Part shown: in pieces, positions 34,424-46,882 of the stretch | Layout of the letters: the number at the start of each line of letters is the position of its first letter | Position numbering within the stretch: position 1 is the first letter of the stretch | NCBI GenBank assembly: GCA_020848545.1 | Contig: JADLHZ010000123.1 | Coordinates: 1-64,000, forward strand | DNA length: 64,000 nucleotides | Source of the DNA: Deltaproteobacteria bacterium | GTDB taxonomy: Bacteria > Myxococcota > JADLHZ01 | Direction: 5' to 3' | Translations under genes and position numbers: made by a program | The notes under the pieces: model-generated | Told to the model about the DNA's origin: nothing | What the model saw: only the letters and a program-made list of their open reading frames with translations | The model's database searches: none

Positions 34424-35344
34424 CTACTCGCGGACTTCGATGATCGCTTTGAGGCGCGTCGCCGCAGCGCGATCGTTCGCTTTCTGAAACACGTCGCTGC
34501 CGCGCTGGCGCTGCTCGATGACGTCTTGAGCGCCGCCGACGCGCGGCTTGTGATCACGGCTTTGCCCCGCGCCAGGGCCTTGGTTGTCACGCGGCGCGCC
34601 GCCGCCAGCGTTGCCCTTCGCCATGCGGTCGCGCGCGTTCGCCGCCGCTTTGTCGACCTTGTCGCCGATCGCCTTGCCGCCGTCGGCCGCGCGATCGTTG
34701 CGCCTGTCACCGCCGCCGCCGCCGCCGCTGCCGCGCGCTTGGTCGAGCAGCATCGCGGTTTGGCTCACGCCGAGATCGCGCACGGCGCGAAAGCCGTTGA
34801 GCCCGACGATCGCCGCCTTGCCGGCGCCGATGAGCCGCTGCTCGCCGCCCGCCTTCACGTTCACGCTGCCTTCGCCGACTTGGATCTCGCAGTCGCTGTC
34901 CGGCGATTGCATGAGCACGCCGAAGTTCGTGCCGCGCACACCGGCGACGGCGCTCGACGTCTGCACTTCGAAGCTGCTGTCGGACGAGAGGAGCTTCGAC
35001 ACGCTCGCCCACAAGCGGCCAACGACGAGCTTCACCGAGATGGTCTTCTTCTCGGCGCTCGCGTCGGAGCGGAGCTGCGCCATCTGCGCCTTCGAGTTCG
35101 CGCCGAGGCGAATCAGAGAGCGATCGTAGAGCCGCACGCGCGCTTGGCTCGAATCTTCGGTGATGACGGCGTCGGTCTCACGCACCTCGGTGCCGAGCGC
35201 CGCGGTGACGACCTCGCCGCTGCCGCGCTGCACTTTGACGACGCCTTGGATGTACACGATGACGGAGGGGGTCTGGGGGAGCTCGTCGGCGAACGCAGGG
35301 AGGGCGACGGCGAGCATGAGGAAGAGCGGTGCGATGAACTTCAT
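34424..35344 (-). CDS. FecR-domain periplasmic protein
   Basis: A 306-residue protein with a cleavable signal (MKFIAPLFLMLAVALPAFA). A FecR domain spans about 45-150: LYDRSLIRLGANSKAQ, then the conserved FEVQTSSAVAGVRGTNFGV. The second half is Gly/Arg/Asp-rich and disordered. The FecR domain here is not paired with a sigma factor or receptor. FecR-domain proteins beside TPR/barrel proteins are a recurrent envelope arrangement in Proteobacteria. ATG 35344 is chosen with GGAGG upstream, and TAGAGT further up is a -10 candidate. Confidence 0.87.
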   Translation of the reverse strand: MKFIAPLFLMLAVALPAFADELPQTPSVIVYIQGVVKVQRGSGEVVTAALGTEVRETDAVITEDSSQARVRLYDRSLIRLGANSKAQMAQLRSDASAEKKTISVKLVVGRLWASVSKLLSSDSSFEVQTSSAVAGVRGTNFGVLMQSPDSDCEIQVGEGSVNVKAGGEQRLIGAGKAAIVGLNGFRAVRDLGVSQTAMLLDQARGSGGGGGGDRRNDRAADGGKAIGDKVDKAAANARDRMAKGNAGGGAPRDNQGPGAGQSRDHKPRVGGAQDVIEQRQRGSDVFQKANDRAAATRLKAIIEVRE

Positions 35345-35367
35345 AGGCGGACGGCCTCCATCCTGAA

Positions 35368-35421
35368 TGATCACTCTAACCCGCTACGCGGCCGAAGGTT
35401 GTGATCCACGATACGTGATCA
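35368..35421. promoter_or_regulatory. Three GTGATC half-sites upstream of the FecR gene
   Basis: TGATCAC (35368-35374), GTGATC (35401-35406) and GTGATCA (35415-35421) occur in the gap between the barrel and FecR genes. The outer two are inverted relative to each other. The same core forms a palindrome before sctV at 61808-61817. Operator function is inferred. Confidence 0.35.
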
Positions 35422-37089
35422 ATATTGCCCGATCAGCGTCAGACCCACCACGTGGCGGCGGTAGGTATAGAGATCATAAGGAGTTCGGTCGCCGTTTTGG
35501 AAGGCATCGTTGTGCGTGTAGGTGTAGCTCGCCTGGATGCCGAAATAACGCACGATGTTGTAGCGCACGTTGAGCGCCACCTCGTAGCGTTGCTCGGCGC
35601 GGATCGGCGTTGCTTGGCTGTAGAAGCGGAAGTTCAAGCTGCCCACCGCGCCGATGCTCAAGAGCTCCTTGTAGCGAAAGCGCAGGATCGCCGACGCACG
35701 CGCGCCGTGCAGCCGAAAGTTCTTACCGGTCGTGTGCTCGTTGTCATAGGCAGCGCTGGCGCTCGCGTCGAACCACCAGAACGGCACGCTATAATAGAGG
35801 CCGCCTGAGTAGATCATGCCGTCGCGATCGTTGGCGGTCGTCGGCGGGCTCAAGCGCGGGTCGATGAACGAGCGGAACTCGACGTTGCCCACGAGATAGA
35901 GGGAGTGGCGCGGCCAAAAGCTGACGCCGACGAAGGGCGCGCCGCCGATCGACTCGATGAGGTGCGTGCGAAACGCCGCCGTCCAGGTGCCGCGGTAGTT
36001 GGCGTCGACGCCGAATTCGAGCTTCACCTTGTCGCCGAAGCCGCTGAAGAAGCCGACGCGCGCCGCCGGCCCGCCGAAGTCGAACCCGCGGAGGCTCGCC
36101 CGATCGTGGTTCGCGTTCAGGAACTCGCCTTCGATCTCGAGCGTGAACTTCTCCGAGGCGACGGGTCGAAAGGTGGCGCGCAGGTTTTCGACGAAACGAA
36201 AGCCCGAGCGTGGCTCCGGCAAGAGCTGCGCTTGCACGTCGGGATCGTTCGGATCCGGCGCGTTTTGCAGGACGGTCGAGTTCAAGCCCGCCGCGCTGGC
36301 CGCGCCGATCGACACGTTCGTGTCGTACTCCGTCGCAAAGTCCAAGCGCACGTTGAACCACGGCATGTAGCGATCGGCCCCGGCGCTGCTTTCGCCGCCG
36401 CTCGTCGCGAGCCCCGCCAACGGCTGCAGCTTCGCCTTCAGCTCCGGCGTCGGCGCGATGGGCAGCGCTTCTTTGGCGTAGCTGCCGGCCTGCGGATCGT
36501 CGAGCTGCGCCGCCACGATCGCGTGGTAGGCCGCCGCATAGGCCGCGGTGACGTCGTCTCCTTTTCGTGCCGCGTCGAAGCGCGCCTTGGCCGTTGGATA
36601 GTCGTCGCTTTCGAGCGCGATGAGGCCGAGGTAGTGCGCGGCGCGCAGATCGATCGGGTTCTTTTCCAGATAGCCTTCGAAGGCCATCTTCGCTTCGGTC
36701 GCGCGCTTCATCGTGTAGAGCAAGAGCGCGCGTTCGTAAGGCGCGAGCGGGTGCGCGGGGTTCAACTGCACGGCGCGGTTCAGGTGCTGCAGCGCGAGGT
36801 CTTGATTGTTCTGCGCCTCTTCGAAGCGCGCCGAGGCGAACCAAACATCGGCGTCGTCCGGCACGAGCTCGCGCGCATAAGCGTAGAGGTTCCGCGCGGC
36901 TTTGACGTCTTCCGTTTGCTCGGCCTCGGCGATGGCGATGTCAGCCTCGACCGAGCGCTCGAACGCCTCCTTGCCTTCGGCGGCATGGAGCACGCCTGGG
37001 GTGACAATGATGGCGAGCGCGAAAGCGAAAATCCCTCTATCGAAAGCCCGCTTGCGTTTGCTAAGCCCCTCGCATCGCTGGTCGCACAT
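35419..37089 (-). CDS. TPR-repeat protein with C-terminal outer-membrane beta-barrel
   Basis: A 556-residue envelope protein. A hydrophobic signal (GIFAFALAIIVTPGVLHA) is preceded by a basic stretch. TPR-like helices cover about 50-235, for example DLALQHLNRAVQLNPAHPLA. From about 245 the sequence alternates like a barrel (VRLDFATEYDTNVSIG through YEVALNVRYNIVRYFG) and ends ...VVGLTLIGQY with a terminal aromatic. Such proteins include polysaccharide exporters and the Slam/DUF560 group; I cannot choose between them. ATG 37089 is used because the longer frame overlaps the divergent gene. Confidence 0.78.
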   Translation of the reverse strand: MCDQRCEGLSKRKRAFDRGIFAFALAIIVTPGVLHAAEGKEAFERSVEADIAIAEAEQTEDVKAARNLYAYARELVPDDADVWFASARFEEAQNNQDLALQHLNRAVQLNPAHPLAPYERALLLYTMKRATEAKMAFEGYLEKNPIDLRAAHYLGLIALESDDYPTAKARFDAARKGDDVTAAYAAAYHAIVAAQLDDPQAGSYAKEALPIAPTPELKAKLQPLAGLATSGGESSAGADRYMPWFNVRLDFATEYDTNVSIGAASAAGLNSTVLQNAPDPNDPDVQAQLLPEPRSGFRFVENLRATFRPVASEKFTLEIEGEFLNANHDRASLRGFDFGGPAARVGFFSGFGDKVKLEFGVDANYRGTWTAAFRTHLIESIGGAPFVGVSFWPRHSLYLVGNVEFRSFIDPRLSPPTTANDRDGMIYSGGLYYSVPFWWFDASASAAYDNEHTTGKNFRLHGARASAILRFRYKELLSIGAVGSLNFRFYSQATPIRAEQRYEVALNVRYNIVRYFGIQASYTYTHNDAFQNGDRTPYDLYTYRRHVVGLTLIGQY

Positions 37090-37091
37090 GA

Positions 37092-38210
37092 GTGCCTTGG
37101 GGATACCGTAGATTGCTGGACGTTCCAAACTTTCGTCGGGCGCGCGCATACCTTTGCCTACCCGTGGCGGTCGTACTCGTCGCGGCGGCGGCGGGCAGTG
37201 TCTCGGCCTACGACAAGAGCGAGGGCGAAGCCTTTCACGACGCGTACTGGCGCTGCGAGCGCTTGGCGAAGGCGAAGGACGACCCCAAGCGCTTCAGTGC
37301 AGCCCGGGCATGCGTCTTTCCGCTGATCGACCAAGCCAAGAAGAAGAAGACCAAGGCCGAGCTCGCGTATCGGGCGTGCGAGTGGCTCGAGAAGGCCGCC
37401 GATGAGGATGTCGTGAAGCTCGGCGAAGCGCGCGCGGCGTTCCTGCAAGTCGGCGTCACTTACGTTGGCGAAGAGATGGCGGCGCGGGCGCGCTTTCGGG
37501 CGGCGCGGCTCTTGGAAGATGCGCTCGGTGATCCTGCGCGCGCCGACGCCGAGTACCGCGCGATCATCCGCGACGCGCCGAACGCGATCGCCGCGTTGAA
37601 CGCCCTCGTGCACGTCGAGCAGGCGCTGCCATCGAACGACGCTCGCGTGCAGCTCTACGAACGCGAGCTCACCGCGCGGCCGCACACCGCGCTCGCTCCG
37701 GTGCTGCTCACGCGCATGGGCCACGCGGCGCTCGCGTCGCCGCAGCTCGCCGCGCGCGCGGTGAAGGTGTTCGACGTGCTCTCACGGCAGGATTCGGCGA
37801 AGAGCGACGACGCCTTGTACTTTGGCGCCAAAGCCCGGGTGATGACCGGCGACTACCCGGGCGCCATCGCCGCGCTCGAAAAGCTCTGCGCCACGAAGGA
37901 GACGACGCCGATCCCGAAGCAGCTTTTGCCGGGCGACCTGCACTCGAGCCGCATGGACGACGCGCGCTTCTTGCTCGGCGAGATCATGCGCGACAGCCTG
38001 GGCGACGATCGCCGCGCCGAGCATCACTTCCGTTTGCTCGTCGAGGAGTCGCCCGCGAGCCGCCTCGTCGACGACGCGCTGCAGGCCGTCGCGGCGATGC
38101 ACCTCGTGCGTGGCGATCGCAAGGCGGCTGCGGGCGTTTACAAGGAGCTCTTGAAGCTGCGGCCGAACTCGCGCTTCAAGAAGGCCGCCGCGGAGCTCGG
38201 TGTCTTGTGA
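37092..38210 (+). CDS. Periplasmic TPR protein (start uncertain)
   Basis: A 372-residue protein if begun at GTG 37092. A signal peptide with core YLCLPVAVVLVAAAAGSVSA ends near residue 40, so the real start may be TTG 37113 or GTG 37161. The mature part has many short helical repeats (TPR/SEL1 type), such as RAARLLEDALGDPARADAEY and EHHFRLLVEESPASRLVDDALQ. This suggests a periplasmic scaffold. It overlaps the first Mla-like ATPase gene as GTGA, so it belongs to that operon and may be an accessory factor of the transporter. Confidence 0.75.
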   Translation: MPWGYRRLLDVPNFRRARAYLCLPVAVVLVAAAAGSVSAYDKSEGEAFHDAYWRCERLAKAKDDPKRFSAARACVFPLIDQAKKKKTKAELAYRACEWLEKAADEDVVKLGEARAAFLQVGVTYVGEEMAARARFRAARLLEDALGDPARADAEYRAIIRDAPNAIAALNALVHVEQALPSNDARVQLYERELTARPHTALAPVLLTRMGHAALASPQLAARAVKVFDVLSRQDSAKSDDALYFGAKARVMTGDYPGAIAALEKLCATKETTPIPKQLLPGDLHSSRMDDARFLLGEIMRDSLGDDRRAEHHFRLLVEESPASRLVDDALQAVAAMHLVRGDRKAAAGVYKELLKLRPNSRFKKAAAELGVL

Positions 38211-38959
38211 CCTTGGCGGCGACCAACCTCGGCTTCGGCTTCGGCCGCCGCGCGCTGTTTTCGCGGCTCGCGCTGAGCATCGCGCCCGGCGAGATCGTCG
38301 GGCTCATCGGGCCACCCGAGGCAGGAAAGAGCGTGCTCTTGAAGCTGCTCTCCGGCTTGCTCGATCCGAGCGCCGGTGAGGTCACGCTCGACGGCCAGTC
38401 GTTCGCCGGCAAGAGCGAGGCCGAACGTTATCCCCTCCGCCGCCACATCGGCATGCTCTTTCAGAACACCGCGCTCTTCGACTCGCTCACGATCTACGAC
38501 AACGTCGCGTTCCCGCTGCGCGCGCTAGTCCGCATGGGCGACGCGATCGATGAGGGCGCGATCGATCGCCGCGTGAAGGAAGCGTTGGCATCCGTCGGCC
38601 TGATCGATTCGGCGCACCAGTTTCCGCACGAGCTCTCGGGCGGCATGAAGAAGCGCGCCGGCCTCGCCCGCGCCACGGTGACGAAGCCGCGCTACTGCTT
38701 TTACGACGAGCCCACGGCCGGCCTCGATCCCGTGACGTCGGCGAAGATCTACGCGCTGATCCGCGCGCACATCGAGCGCGACGGCGCCGGCGCGCTCATC
38801 ATCTCGAACGAGCTCGACACGCTGCTCCCTGCCTGCCATCGCGTGCTCATGCTCTACGACGGGGCCCTCGTTTTCTCGGGAACGCCGGCCGAGCTCGAGC
38901 GCGCGAGCCATCCAGCCGTGCGCCAGTTCGCCACCGGCGCCAACGAAGGACCGTTATGA
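38207..38959 (+). CDS. MlaF-like ATPase A (H-loop His replaced by Asn)
   Basis: A 250-residue ABC ATPase of the MCE/Mla lipid-transport group. Walker A is GPPEAGKS (35-42), Q-loop MLFQNTALFDS, signature LSGGM (143-147) and Walker B YCFYDEP (163-169) with catalytic Glu. The switch region reads IISNELD, so the H-loop His is Asn201 (codon AAC at 38807). The C-terminal RQFATGANEGP is the MlaF-type tail. With its own signature intact but no H-loop His, it would supply Walker motifs to a degenerate site when paired with ATPase B. GTGA overlap with the TPR gene and ATGA overlap with permease 1. Confidence 0.92.
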   Translation: MTLAATNLGFGFGRRALFSRLALSIAPGEIVGLIGPPEAGKSVLLKLLSGLLDPSAGEVTLDGQSFAGKSEAERYPLRRHIGMLFQNTALFDSLTIYDNVAFPLRALVRMGDAIDEGAIDRRVKEALASVGLIDSAHQFPHELSGGMKKRAGLARATVTKPRYCFYDEPTAGLDPVTSAKIYALIRAHIERDGAGALIISNELDTLLPACHRVLMLYDGALVFSGTPAELERASHPAVRQFATGANEGPL

Positions 38960-39726
38960 GCGCCTTGGTCCGCAGGCTCGGCGCGCCCGTGACCTCCGCC
39001 GCAAGAGACGCCGGCGGCATGACGTTGATCGCCTGGCGTGCGTTGCGCGCGTTGTATCCCTTGAACATCGAGCGCGAAGAGCTCGTGCGGGCGATGTATA
39101 AATTCGGCTACATGTCGCTGCCGATCGTCGCGGTCACGGCGTTCTTCGCCGGCGGCATCATGGTGCTGCAAGCGGCGATGTACGTGGCCCAGTACGGCGC
39201 GTACACCTTCGTCGGTTGGGCCGCGGGCTTCGTCACGCTGCGCGAGATGGGCCCCTTGCTCATCGGCCTGATGTTCTCGGGCCGCGTCGGCGCCAACAAC
39301 GCCGCCGAGCTCGCGACGATGACCATCACCGAGCAGGTCGACGCGCTCCGCGTGTTGGCGATCGATCCCTTCCGCTACCTCGTCGTGCCGCGGCTCTTTG
39401 CGATGATCGTGATGCTCTTCTGCCTGACGGCGATCGGCGACCTCGTGGCGATCGGCGGTGGCGCCTTGATCGCGCGCCTGGTGCTCGGCATCGAGTTTCG
39501 CCTGTTCTTCGACAGCGTCAGCGCGATGGTGGTGATGGGCGATCTGACCATCGGGCTCGTGAAGTCCGCCGTCTTCGGCCTCGCGATCGGCGTCGTCTCG
39601 AGCCACTTCGGCCTCACGGTGAAGGGCGGCGCCCGCGGCGTCGGCCACGCCGTCAACGCTTGTGTCGTCGGCAACGCGATCCTGATCTTCGTCGTCGACT
39701 ACTTCATCACGGCGCTCGGCACATGA
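38956..39726 (+). CDS. MlaE-like permease 1
   Basis: A 256-residue MlaE/DUF140-family inner-membrane permease with an amphipathic N-terminal helix and about five membrane segments. The coupling region VGANNAAELATMTITEQVDAL has the conserved E-x-x-x-M-x-x-x-E-Q-x-D-A-L pattern that docks on MlaF. It is a clear paralogue of the next gene, but only the coupling and core helices match well. Overlaps both neighbours by 4 bases (ATGA), implying coupled translation. Confidence 0.93.
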   Translation: MSALVRRLGAPVTSAARDAGGMTLIAWRALRALYPLNIEREELVRAMYKFGYMSLPIVAVTAFFAGGIMVLQAAMYVAQYGAYTFVGWAAGFVTLREMGPLLIGLMFSGRVGANNAAELATMTITEQVDALRVLAIDPFRYLVVPRLFAMIVMLFCLTAIGDLVAIGGGALIARLVLGIEFRLFFDSVSAMVVMGDLTIGLVKSAVFGLAIGVVSSHFGLTVKGGARGVGHAVNACVVGNAILIFVVDYFITALGT

Positions 39727-40511
39727 TCGCTTTGACGCAGCTGCTCGGCGCACAAACGATCTGGCTCTTCGAGCAGTTCCTCGGCCTACGCTCGCTGTTT
39801 TGGCGCACCGTGGCCTCGCTCCTGCGCCGCCGCTTCCGGCGCAGCGAAGTCATCGAGCATGCGTACAACTTCGCGAACAAGAGCCTGCTCTTCCTCTTCG
39901 TCACGATGGGCTTCGTCGGCATGATCATGGTCTTCCAAGCGTGCTTCCAGGCGCAGCGCTTGCTCGGCGACATGACGCTCATCGGCCCGGCCTTCTTGCA
40001 GCTCGTCATCCGCGAGTTCGCGCCGACGATCGGCGGCCTGATGATCGCCACGCGCGTCGGCGCCGGCATCGCCGCCGAGATCGGCAGCATGAACGTCACC
40101 GAGCAGATCGACGCCTTGCGCATGAACGGCGCCGATCCCGTCGATCACTTGGTGGCACCGCGCATCCTCGCCGGCGTGGTCACGATGTTGAGCCTCGGCA
40201 TCTTCGGCGCGCTCTTCATGTTCCTCGTCGGCGGCGTGACGGCGAAGGCGGCGTTCTCGGTGCCCTACTCCACCTTCTTCAACATGGGCCTGATCAAGCC
40301 GCTCGACGTCATGTCGTTTCTGAACAAGTGCGTCGTCTACGGCTTCGTCATCCCGCTCGTCGCGGCGCACGCCGGCTTCGTCGCGCGCGGCGGCTCCGAG
40401 GGCGTCGGCTCGGCCACCACGCGCTCGGTCATCGAGTGCTCGCTGTGGATCCTGATGTTCGATCTCGGCATCGGCGCGTTCTACTTCATCCTGCAGCGGG
40501 CGATCGGGTGA
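39723..40511 (+). CDS. MlaE-like permease 2
   Basis: A 262-residue second MlaE-family permease. The coupling motif is AAEIGSMNVTEQIDALRMNG, preceded by REFAPTIGGLMIATRVGAG. Its N-terminus is longer and more basic (ASLLRRRFRRSEVIEHAY) than permease 1. E. coli MlaE acts as a homodimer. Having two different permeases directly side by side, each beside its own ATPase, argues for a heterodimer here. GTGA overlap with ATPase B. Confidence 0.93.
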   Translation: MIALTQLLGAQTIWLFEQFLGLRSLFWRTVASLLRRRFRRSEVIEHAYNFANKSLLFLFVTMGFVGMIMVFQACFQAQRLLGDMTLIGPAFLQLVIREFAPTIGGLMIATRVGAGIAAEIGSMNVTEQIDALRMNGADPVDHLVAPRILAGVVTMLSLGIFGALFMFLVGGVTAKAAFSVPYSTFFNMGLIKPLDVMSFLNKCVVYGFVIPLVAAHAGFVARGGSEGVGSATTRSVIECSLWILMFDLGIGAFYFILQRAIG

Positions 40512-41248
40512 TCCGCTTCGAGCACATCAAGAAGTCGTTCGGCGAGAAGGTCGTGCTCGACGACGTCTCGTTCGACATCCCGAAGGGCCGCGTGCAGTTC
40601 GTCATCGGCATGTCGGGCACCGGCAAGAGCGTGCTCATGAAGCACCTCGTCGGCCTCTTGAAGCCGGACAGCGGCGACGTGTGGCTCGACGGCGAGAACA
40701 TCACGCGCCTCACCGAGCGCGAGTTCTACCGGGTGCGCAAGAAGTGCGGCATGGTCTTTCAACACTCGACGCTCTTCGACTCGATGACCATCCTCGAGAA
40801 CATCGCCATGCCGATCCGCAAGCACTTCGCGCTCGACTCGAAGGCGGCGAACGCCCGCGCGATGGAGGCGCTCGAGCTCGTGCACCTGGGAAAAGAGGCG
40901 AAGCGCCTGCCACCGGAGCTCGGCGCCGGCGTGAGGAAGCGCGCCGCGATCGCCCGCGCCTTGGCGTTGAAGCCCGACTACTTGATCTACGACGAGCCGA
41001 CGACCGCGCTCGACCCCATCGCCGCGCGGCGCATCGACGGCCTCATCCGCGAGATGAGCGACAAGACGGGCGTCACCAGCTTGGTCGTCTCGCACGACGT
41101 GCGCAGCATCTTCGCCATCTCGGACTCGGTGGCGTTCCTCTATCGCTCGAAGCTGCAGTTCCTCGGCACGCCGGCGGAGCTGAAGGCGACGACGGATCCC
41201 ATCGTGAAGCAGTTCATCAACGGCCTCTCGCAGGGTCCGATCACGTGA
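40508..41248 (+). CDS. MlaF-like ATPase B (degenerate signature LGAG)
   Basis: A 246-residue ABC ATPase. Walker A is GMSGTGKS (34-41), Q-loop MVFQHSTLFDS, Walker B YLIYDEP (158-164) and an intact H-loop VVSHD with His196. The signature is LGAGV (138-142) in place of LSGGM. This is the mirror of ATPase A, which keeps the signature and loses the His. In a heterodimer the B Walker/His plus A signature would form the one consensus hydrolysis site. The C-terminal KQFINGLSQGPIT is the MlaF-type tail. Start GTG 40508. Confidence 0.92.
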   Translation: MIRFEHIKKSFGEKVVLDDVSFDIPKGRVQFVIGMSGTGKSVLMKHLVGLLKPDSGDVWLDGENITRLTEREFYRVRKKCGMVFQHSTLFDSMTILENIAMPIRKHFALDSKAANARAMEALELVHLGKEAKRLPPELGAGVRKRAAIARALALKPDYLIYDEPTTALDPIAARRIDGLIREMSDKTGVTSLVVSHDVRSIFAISDSVAFLYRSKLQFLGTPAELKATTDPIVKQFINGLSQGPIT

Positions 41249-44536: not shown

Positions 44537-45607
44537 TCACGGACAGCCCGCTTCCGCCCCCACGTAAGTCGACGCCGGCCGAATCAAGCGCCCCGTCCGC
44601 CGCTGCTCTGCCACATGCGCGAGCCACCCAGCTGTCCGCCCGCACGCAAACATCGGTGAAAACGCCGCGCGATCGATCCCGACCGCGTCGAGCAAGACCG
44701 CCGTGTAGAACTCGACGTTCACGTCGAGCGAACGGTCCGGATACTTCGCCTTCAACGCCTTCCTCGCGACACCTTCGACGGCGCGCGCGAGCGTCAGCCG
44801 CGGCGAATCCTTGCCGAGCGCTTTGGTCGCCGCTTCGAGCACCGCCGCCCGCGGATCGCGCGTCTTGTAGACGCGGTGGCCCATGCCCATGATGCGGCGG
44901 CCGGCGGCGATCTCGCCGTCGATCCACGCCTCCGCCCGCTCCGGCGTACCGATGGCGTCGAGCATGTCGAGCACCGGCCCGGGCGCCCCGCCATGCAACG
45001 GGCCCTTCAGCGCGCCGATCGCCGCGACGACGGCCGACACCGCGTCGGAGCCGGTCGATGCCACGACGCGCGCGGCGAAAGTAGACGCGTTCATGCCGTG
45101 GTCGCAGACCGTGACGAGGTAGCGCTCGAGGCCTCGGGCCGCCAGAGGGTCGTGCGCGCCGGTCATCATTCGGTGCAGATCAGCGGCGTGCGCGAGCGAG
45201 GGATCCGGTGCCAGCACGGGCTCGCCGCGCGCGCGCCGATACCACTGCGCCGTTGCCACCGAGGTCGCCGCGAGCAGCTCGAACGCGGTCTCGAGCTCGG
45301 TGTCTGTCTCGGACAGCGTCGCCAGCGCCGCGCGCAACGCGTCCATGCCGTTCGCGGCCACGGGCGCGCTCAGCCGCCTCGCCACCCGCACCCGCGCCGC
45401 CGCGAGCCGCTCCTTCACCTGCGCCTCGGTCGTCGCAAGGCCGGCCGCCGTGAACAACCGCGCGGTCGCCGCCTCGAAGCTCGCGCTTTCGCCGAGCGCT
45501 TCGACGTCGGCGCCCGCGATGACGAGCACGCCTTCGTCGCCGCGCACGTCCGAGAGCGCCGTTTCTGCTGCGACCACACCTTCGAGGCCATTTGCTGTTG
45601 CTTTCAT
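44537..45607 (-). CDS. Citrate synthase, CitA-like
   Basis: A 356-residue enzyme condensing acetyl-CoA with oxaloacetate (or propionyl-CoA, as methylcitrate synthase). Active-site segments are CDHGMNASTFAARV, LKGPLHGG and MGMGHRVYKTRDPRA. The third catalytic position reads DVNVEFYTA with Glu in place of the usual Asp, a substitution also found in actinobacterial CitA-type enzymes as I recall them, so it need not mean loss of activity. CGRTAGWLAHVAEQ and a RPASxYVG tail are standard. ATG 45607 is 24 bases from the divergent HTH-citrate synthase gene. Confidence 0.9.
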   Translation of the reverse strand: MKATANGLEGVVAAETALSDVRGDEGVLVIAGADVEALGESASFEAATARLFTAAGLATTEAQVKERLAAARVRVARRLSAPVAANGMDALRAALATLSETDTELETAFELLAATSVATAQWYRRARGEPVLAPDPSLAHAADLHRMMTGAHDPLAARGLERYLVTVCDHGMNASTFAARVVASTGSDAVSAVVAAIGALKGPLHGGAPGPVLDMLDAIGTPERAEAWIDGEIAAGRRIMGMGHRVYKTRDPRAAVLEAATKALGKDSPRLTLARAVEGVARKALKAKYPDRSLDVNVEFYTAVLLDAVGIDRAAFSPMFACGRTAGWLAHVAEQRRTGRLIRPASTYVGAEAGCP

Positions 45608-45665
45608 GCGCTGAGTGTTAAACCTCGGCTTATGGTTGATCAACGTAGATTCGACAATCAACGTA
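45608..45665. promoter_or_regulatory. Divergent promoter and direct repeats between the two citrate synthase genes
   Basis: On the minus strand TTGATC, 17 bases and TAACAC point to the CitA-like gene, ending 7 bases before its ATG. On the plus strand TTGCTG, 18 bases and TGTTAA point to the HTH gene. ATCAACGTA occurs twice (45639-45647 and 45657-45665), 18 bases apart, overlapping the minus-strand -35. A DNA-binding HTH in the adjacent gene makes these plausible operator half-sites. Confidence 0.45.
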
Positions 45666-46882
45666 AGACCATCTCGGCCAAGGAAGCGGCGCGGCGTATG
45701 GGCGTGCAGGTGCGAACGCTCTACGCTTACGCCGCGCGCGGCCTCCTGCGCAGCCTGCCCCGCCAGCGCGGCCTCGCCCACGACTACCTCTTGGACGACG
45801 TCGAGCGGCTCATCGCGCGCAAGCGGGCGCACTCTGGGCACACCGTCGCAGCGGCCGGTGCGCTGCGCTGGGGCGAGCCGGTGCTCGAGACGGCGATCAG
45901 CGACATCGACACGCGCGGGCCGATCTACCGTGAGCATGCCGCGGTCGCCCTCGCCCGCGCCGGCGTCTCGTTCGAGCGGACGGCCGAGCTCTTGTGGACC
46001 GGCGTGCTTCCGCGCGCCGAGCCCGCCTGGCCGCGCGACGCCAGCTTGCTGCGCCGAGTCCCGCGCGCGAAGGCTCCAGGCACGCTGGCCGCGCTCACGC
46101 ATACCCTCGCCGCGCTCGGCAGCGACGACGACACGCGCCTCGGCGAGCCGGAAGCGGCGACGCTGGCGTTCACCCGCGCGCTCGTGCCGGTGCTCGCCGC
46201 GTCCGTCGGGGCGAACGCGGCGCGGGCGTTCGCCGGCTCCAACGTCGCGGCGATCCTGCTGCGCGCGCTCGGCGGCGATACCAGCGTAAAGGCCGAGCGT
46301 CTCTGTCACAGCGCGCTGGTGCTCACCGCCGATCACGAGCTCAACGCCTCGACCTTCGCCGCGCGCGTCGCAGCCTCTGCCGGCGCCGACATCTACGCAT
46401 GCCTCACCGCGGCCGCTGCCGTCGCGTCGGGGCCGGAGCACGTCGGCCACGCGCGCCGCGTCGAGGCGATGATCGACGAGATGCCCTCGCCGAAGGACGC
46501 GCGGCGCGTGCTGCTCGCGAGGATCGCCCGCGGCGAAGCGATCCCAGGCTTCGGCCATCGCATCTATACAAAGGGCGACCCGCGCGCGGCGCCGCTCTTC
46601 GAAGGGGCGAAGGCGCTCGCCCCAAAGAACCCGCGCGTGCAGAAGGTCTTCGCGGCGATCGCCGCGATGGAAGATCTCGGCCGCGAGCCGCCGACCGTCG
46701 ACCCCGCGCTCGTCGCCACCGGCGCGGCGCTCGGTCTACTGCCCGGCGCAAGCACCCTGCTCTTCGCGCTCGGCCGCACCGCCGGTTGGATCGCGCACGT
46801 GCTCGAGCAGCGCCGCGCAGGCTACCTGGTACGGCCGCGCGCGCGCTACGTGCCACTTGACCCGGGAACTTCACCGGAATAG
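45632..46882 (+). CDS. Citrate synthase-like protein with N-terminal DNA-binding HTH
   Basis: A 416-residue fusion. Residues 13-65 form a MerR/excisionase-type winged helix (ISAKEAARRMGVQVRTLYAY, then a LPRQRGLAHDYLLDDVERLI wing). Residues about 85-410 are a citrate synthase fold: ADHELNASTFAARV, SGPEHVGHARRV (GPLHGG altered), PGFGHRIYTKGDPRA, VDPALVATGAALG and FALGRTAGWIAHVLEQ. HTH-fused citrate synthases are a known but little-studied group. The altered substrate loop suggests a ligand-sensing regulator or a narrower enzyme. It is divergent from a canonical paralogue, which it may control. Confidence 0.88.
   Translation: MVDQRRFDNQRKTISAKEAARRMGVQVRTLYAYAARGLLRSLPRQRGLAHDYLLDDVERLIARKRAHSGHTVAAAGALRWGEPVLETAISDIDTRGPIYREHAAVALARAGVSFERTAELLWTGVLPRAEPAWPRDASLLRRVPRAKAPGTLAALTHTLAALGSDDDTRLGEPEAATLAFTRALVPVLAASVGANAARAFAGSNVAAILLRALGGDTSVKAERLCHSALVLTADHELNASTFAARVAASAGADIYACLTAAAAVASGPEHVGHARRVEAMIDEMPSPKDARRVLLARIARGEAIPGFGHRIYTKGDPRAAPLFEGAKALAPKNPRVQKVFAAIAAMEDLGREPPTVDPALVATGAALGLLPGASTLLFALGRTAGWIAHVLEQRRAGYLVRPRARYVPLDPGTSPE

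Follow-up and report, generated by a model that had tools for sequence, protein, structure and literature searches.

Can an MlaFE-type lipid transporter be built on two different ATPases, each defective in a different half of the ATP site? In ABC ATPases each nucleotide is held between the catalytic motifs of one nucleotide-binding domain (NBD) and the signature motif of its partner (PMC7367683), and the solved MCE-linked ABC transporters that we considered have two copies of one ATPase. The question is raised by an operon from a Deltaproteobacteria bacterium of the phylum Myxococcota (assembly GCA_020848545.1). It lies in the window, a stretch of 64,000 nucleotides (contig JADLHZ010000123.1, positions 1 to 64,000), and codes for two MlaF-like ATPases, A and B, and two MlaE-family permeases.

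The operon and its surroundings

The genes for ATPase A, permease A, permease B, and ATPase B follow one another in that order on the forward strand (38207-41248), neighbors sharing 4 bases, either ATGA or GTGA (Table 1). This order is established, as are the motifs described below. The first-pass annotation had reported the four genes, their 4-base overlaps, and the two kinds each of ATPase and permease. All of this held, and the run is longer than it stated: the chain of overlaps also takes in a TPR ORF, whose end overlaps ATPase A by 4 bases, and a 146-aa ORF 3' of ATPase B.

Both permeases score above the PF02405 cut-off. Permease B is divergent from permease A (34% identical), and PDB matches of the latter include MlaE and YrbE1A chains; for all four proteins the nearest solved structures are Mla chains. 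MlaF chains are the closest in the PDB to both ATPases, which score 155.9 (A) and 209.4 (B) bits against the NCBIfam MlaF model, below its equivalog cut-off of 441. The TPR ORF matches TPR_6 (E 2.8e-11) and may in fact start downstream of 37092, since it overlaps a divergent gene ending at 37149. The 146-aa ORF had no family match in Pfam, and a gene for the MlaB STAS-domain subunit was not found with Pfam among the overlapping genes, to which that search was confined. Just upstream of the operon, and divergent from it, are genes for a FecR-domain protein and another TPR protein. The window also contains two citrate-synthase-domain ORFs on opposite strands in a divergent arrangement; the forward one additionally has a weak MerR-type helix-turn-helix match before that domain.

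Table 1. Positions of the genes discussed. Locations without a prefix refer to the window; prefixes denote other contigs or retrieved loci.
Feature	Location	Strand	Remarks
FecR-domain protein	34424-35374	-	
TPR protein	35419-37149	-	
TPR-repeat protein, 372 aa	37092-38210	+	Putative N-terminal signal sequence; first gene of the overlapping run
ATPase A, MlaF-like	38207-38959	+	GTG start; ABC_tran (Pfam); best NCBIfam model MlaF
Permease A, MlaE family	38956-39726	+	PF02405, E 2.5e-67
Permease B, MlaE family	39723-40511	+	PF02405, E 3.6e-51
ATPase B, MlaF-like	40508-41248	+	ABC_tran (Pfam); best NCBIfam model MlaF
Hydrophobic multi-TM ORF, 146 aa	41245-41685	+	Overlaps the end of ATPase B; operon membership uncertain
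Citrate-synthase-domain ORF	44537-46558	-	
Citrate-synthase-domain ORF	44876-46882	+	
Orphan MCE gene of the window genome	C59:49916 onward		340 aa
UbiB/ABC1 gene	L065:2580-4280		
UbiB/ABC1 gene	L066:7382-9067		
UbiB/ABC1 gene	L067:5734-7440		
UbiB/ABC1 gene	L068:3271-4971		
UbiB/ABC1 gene	L069:5708-7402		
UbiB/ABC1 gene	L217:6716-8419		
UbiB/ABC1 gene	L051:8261-10069		
UbiB/ABC1 gene	L058:1848-3740		
UbiB/ABC1 gene	L285:2-823		

Complementary motif changes in the two ATPases

ATPase A retains the signature LSGGM (residues 143-147, Ser codon at 38636) and the Walker B DE (167-168, Glu168 codon at 38708), and has Asn201 (codon AAC at 38807) in place of the H-loop His. ATPase B carries the degenerate signature LGAGV (138-142, Gly139 codon at 40922) and keeps both the DE (162-163, Glu163 codon at 40994) and the H-loop His196 (codon at 41093). 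The first-pass annotation had read these motifs in the same way. The defects are arranged in trans, such that in an A/B pair one composite site would be consensus and the other degenerate.

We classified 198 MlaF-type ATPases by residue, counting loss of the Glu and/or the His as a catalytic-side defect. Intact enzymes numbered 81, while 60 had only a catalytic-side defect and 57 only a signature defect. None of the 117 degenerate ATPases had both defects in one chain, and the Walker A Lys was present in all 198. Many of these entries are close relatives and not independent events. In the window's phylum, ATPase B homologues always have a broken signature, LG[PAQHKD]G or VGPG, with the Glu and His intact. 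In ATPase A homologues the SGG is invariant, and the His, the Glu, or both are lost depending on lineage, as expected if one composite site has eroded repeatedly. The f8-family A proteins, for instance, also carry Glu to Asp; their H-loop position aligns with Ala or Pro, with an uncertainty of one column. The single exception among the A proteins read is in G190 (L214:940-1707), where B has the signature VGPG and A still has the catalytic Glu and the H-loop His; this genome may represent an evolutionary intermediate. In the tree, ATPase A branches are longer than B branches. Because homologues conserve both patterns (SGG lost with Glu and His kept in B, SGG kept with Glu and/or His lost in A), a chance origin of the changes in the window is excluded.

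Conservation and co-occurrence in the window's phylum

To collect relatives, 58 genomes of the phylum were searched with permease B and tandem permease loci were then retrieved. No stretch of the permease-B alignment was conserved enough for a degenerate-pattern search, but a search with the single protein worked. The operon recurring in relatives has the order (A)-permease A-permease B-B-MCE with the same complementary defects. ATPase A sits in the operon in most genomes. It is unlinked in six (G004, G024, G029, G033, G037, and G040), with the SGG intact and Asn or Thr for the His; in three of the six the permease operon is near a contig end and linkage is not fully testable there. Four other operons (G095, G096, G100, and G097; L212-L213, L218, and L281) are split between the permease genes by about 1 to 9 kb, leaving blocks of A-permease A and permease B-B-MCE. 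The tandem permeases of L054-L057 and L059 were rejected as members of the same asymmetric system, each locus having one intact ATPase. The window genome itself (8.0 Mb) encodes two further MlaE proteins besides those in this operon, four in all, in other MlaFE loci with intact ATPases (LSGGM with SHD or THD).

We then ran A and B profiles over 195 genomes of the phylum with a cut-off of about 286 bits, excluding ordinary MlaF by reading or linkage. A cut-off on profile score alone was rejected, since below about 287 bits true B proteins (G182, G183, and G090) are interspersed with ordinary MlaF (G092-G094). ATPase B was found in 59 genomes, 57 of which also encode A, including three with divergent A genes in the operon. 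The two types of defect co-occur across many families, even with A encoded elsewhere. A Fisher test of the co-occurrence gave p of about 1e-41 when genomes were the units and 5e-6 when families were; neither value is corrected for relatedness, and many of the genomes counted are close relatives. The counts are approximate and should be read as "at least", because both further members and ordinary intact MlaF are found just below the cut-off. The former include A/B pairs in G183 and G090 and a B at a contig start in G182.

Some genomes depart from the pattern. Of the two with B in which no A was found, G111 has a contig edge upstream of B; the other, G001 (L044), encodes B, both permeases, and MCE with no recognizable A and is a real exception. 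An A without a full B match occurs in four genomes, three of which end at a contig edge inside permease B or B. The fourth, G017 (L217), has A without B and is unexplained. G009 (L051) encodes A and both permeases but no recognizable B. Together with G190, the exceptions G001, G009, and G017 count against an asymmetric pair.

The first-pass annotation had inferred a heterodimer of A and B in which one site is consensus and the other degenerate, naming co-occurrence of the His and signature changes in related genomes as a check and separate expression of the two halves as a refutation. The changes do co-occur, and the comparison strongly supports the heterodimer, the pairing itself being inferred. 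The refutation is partly met by the six genomes with an unlinked A, yet these keep the complementary defect.

The asymmetric motif pattern beyond the window's phylum

A search of 144 genomes of the Bdellovibrionota (the phylum of L205) gave 22 matches, from which 20 loci were retrieved. The asymmetric pattern is present in all 20, with substitutions differing from those of the window's phylum. There, A has the signature [IL]SGGM, a Walker B DD, and, in 19 loci, Asn for the His; B has [IL]SYGM with DE and SHD. Each locus encodes two permeases, and all but one, which is truncated, an MCE protein. ATPase B proteins of the two phyla form sister clades (support 95/92), so the pair possibly predates both phyla or was exchanged. 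Acidobacteriota (the phylum of L207, 149 genomes) served as a control, and all five matches were ordinary, intact ATPases.

Probable periplasmic partners

The window's operon has no MlaD-type MCE gene, as the first-pass annotation had noted. Three MCE genes were found elsewhere in the genome: one with the MlaFE genes of contig C32, one near those of C25 on the other strand, and an orphan with no adjoining transporter on the available contig. The MCE tree places the orphan with MCE proteins of asymmetric systems and apart from the clade of ordinary ones (100/100), although its deep branching order is weak. In both phyla an MCE gene stands directly 3' of the operon in most relatives, normally one per two permeases. 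Since MCE adjoins the operon in relatives and the window genome has an orphan of that type, the periplasmic partner is likely an MCE protein encoded at another locus, a pairing that is again inferred.

TPR proteins are encoded ahead of A not only in the window but also in L064, L065, L066, and L068. The window's protein has weak but significant similarity (1e-6) to that of L064, where A is unlinked, and those of L064, L065, and L068 are clearly related to each other. Because it resembles TPR proteins adjoining ATPase A in other genomes, the TPR protein is likely to be an additional accessory, probably a periplasmic component, and not a substitute for MCE.

Proposed mechanism

The likely reading is an MlaFE-type lipid transporter in which A and B form a heterodimer, giving one consensus site and one that is degenerate. 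It rests on the complementary changes, which co-occur, never share a chain among the 198 ATPases, and appear again in a second phylum through other substitutions. In this view permeases A and B would lie in the inner membrane with ATPases A and B below, forming a hetero-tetramer of the MCE-linked, type VIII kind. Each ATP site would be composite, its Walker motifs and H-loop supplied by one ATPase and its signature by the partner. The Walker motifs, Glu, and His of B with the LSGGM of A would make a complete site, expected to hydrolyze ATP. The Walker motifs of A, with Asn for the His, and the LGAGV of B would make a degenerate site that probably binds ATP without normal turnover, given that none of the ATPases read has lost its Walker A Lys. 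If TM287/288 and TAP are a guide, this site would stabilize the dimer while the consensus site hydrolyzes (PMC5216877, PMC12422388). Some activity may remain at the site of the window's ATPase A, since it retains the catalytic Glu. Only an A/B pairing yields one complete site; an A2 dimer would have two sites without the His, and a B2 dimer two without a consensus signature.

A ring of a single MCE protein, a hexamer by analogy, would carry lipid across the periplasm with help from the TPR protein. A lipid cargo is assumed from the role of the permease and MCE families in lipid transport, and the direction of transport is undetermined. No physical or biochemical evidence is available for the A/B pairing, the ATPase asymmetry, the MCE assignment, or the cargo and its direction, all of which are inferred.

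Alternative explanations

The operon might instead encode two homodimeric transporters, A2 with permease A and B2 with permease B, the motif changes being tolerated quirks of particular lineages. Each permease does adjoin its own ATPase, and G001 has B, both permeases, and MCE without a recognizable A. Against this, A2 sites would lack the His, and in many lineages also the Glu, while B2 sites would lack a consensus signature. Both genes are nonetheless retained with their opposite motifs strictly conserved, and the two permeases normally share one MCE gene. We consider this explanation very improbable. Just as improbable, in our view, is that ATPase A is a regulatory or dominant-negative paralogue, and that B forms homodimers or pairs with an ordinary MlaF encoded in a different operon. 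The unlinked A genes, the kinase gene adjoining A in several lineages, the longer A branches, and the intact MlaF-like ATPases also encoded in the window genome could be cited in its favor. However, the SGG and the Walker A Lys are invariant in all A proteins read, as expected for a site working in trans, and A lies within the operon in most genomes.

The first-pass annotation had also suggested the TPR protein as a possible periplasmic partner in place of MCE. In its favor are the overlap of the window's TPR gene with A and the TPR proteins encoded ahead of unlinked A genes in other genomes. This suggestion failed and was rejected as very unlikely, given the MCE genes 3' of the operon in most relatives of both phyla and the orphan MCE of the asymmetric-system type on C59. 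MCE remains the most likely partner, with TPR probably an addition to it.

Relation to known systems

The preferred A/B heterodimer has no exact counterpart among the systems compared. MlaFEDB of E. coli, A. baumannii, and P. aeruginosa has the same permease and ATPase families and an MCE partner such as we infer for our system, its LSGGM-type signature is matched by A, and the ATPase C-terminal tail in the operon, ending GPL/GPI, resembles that of MlaF. In MlaFEDB, however, one kind of MlaF and one kind of MlaE are present in two copies each, unlike the two different ATPases and two different permeases here, and the operon run has no MlaB, MlaC, or MlaA gene. The operon does not meet the definition of a symmetric MlaFEDB (one ATPase gene, one permease gene, and two consensus sites). 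Mycobacterial Mce1 (YrbE1A/YrbE1B-MceG) combines a heterodimeric pair of MlaE-type permeases with MCE proteins (PMC9882608), as inferred for our system. Mce1 has an MceG homodimer and six different MCE proteins, whereas our system has a predicted ATPase heterodimer and, in relatives, one MCE gene. With two ATPases and no MCE gene, the operon also falls outside the definition of an actinobacterial Mce system (six MCE genes and an MceG homodimer).

The exporters TM287/288, TAP, and BmrCD pair a consensus with a degenerate site, one NBD having lost catalytic-side residues and the other deviating in its signature, as here (PMC5216877, PMC12422388). CFTR is likewise a heterodimeric-type ABC protein with a degenerate site. 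These exporters have a type IV fold and other partners, whereas the MlaE fold is type VIII, and homology is limited to the NBDs. The minimal MlaEFD of the Veillonella type resembles the asymmetric system in having an MCE protein longer than E. coli MlaD and no MlaA or MlaC in the operon; its long MlaD is proposed to form a trans-envelope bridge (PMC10665443). Unlike our operon, it has a single MlaE and a single MlaF, modeled as 2:2:6, and that paper does not mention Myxococcota, Bdellovibrio, or a heterodimer. An asymmetric pair of MCE ATPases was not described in any of the literature searched, which excluded most subscription papers and all bioRxiv preprints.

An asymmetric Mla-type system would bring to an unrelated permease fold the degenerate-site design described in exporters, among them TM287/288 and TAP. 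The direction in which Mla moves lipid, inward or outward, is a matter of dispute (PMC7367683). In a transporter that is asymmetric by nature the two sites could be inactivated one at a time, which would allow a direct test of what ATP binding and ATP hydrolysis each contribute to lipid flow. A bolder reading is that these operons form an ancient, separate class of MCE transporter with an obligately asymmetric ATPase pair, common to Myxococcota and Bdellovibrionota and accompanied in part of its range by a UbiB/ABC1 kinase and a TPR protein. We lean slightly against it at present. If it is true, one site would hydrolyze while the other holds ATP, an arrangement that might contribute to determining which way lipid flows.

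Linkage to UbiB/ABC1 kinase genes

In L065-L069 and L217, ATPase A has a UbiB/ABC1-kinase gene as its neighbor, either immediate or separated from it by a TPR gene; in L051, L058, and L285 the kinase gene is directly 5' of A (Table 1). The adjacency spans several families and includes genomes with A far from the permeases; in the window genome the closest ABC1 kinase is unlinked to the operon. If it reflects a shared function of UbiB kinases and MCE transporters, this would to our knowledge be new. The repeated linkage suggests a connection of UbiB to envelope lipid transport, and an association with a mitochondrial membrane contact site has already been reported for Cqd1, a yeast relative of UbiB (PMC10214851).
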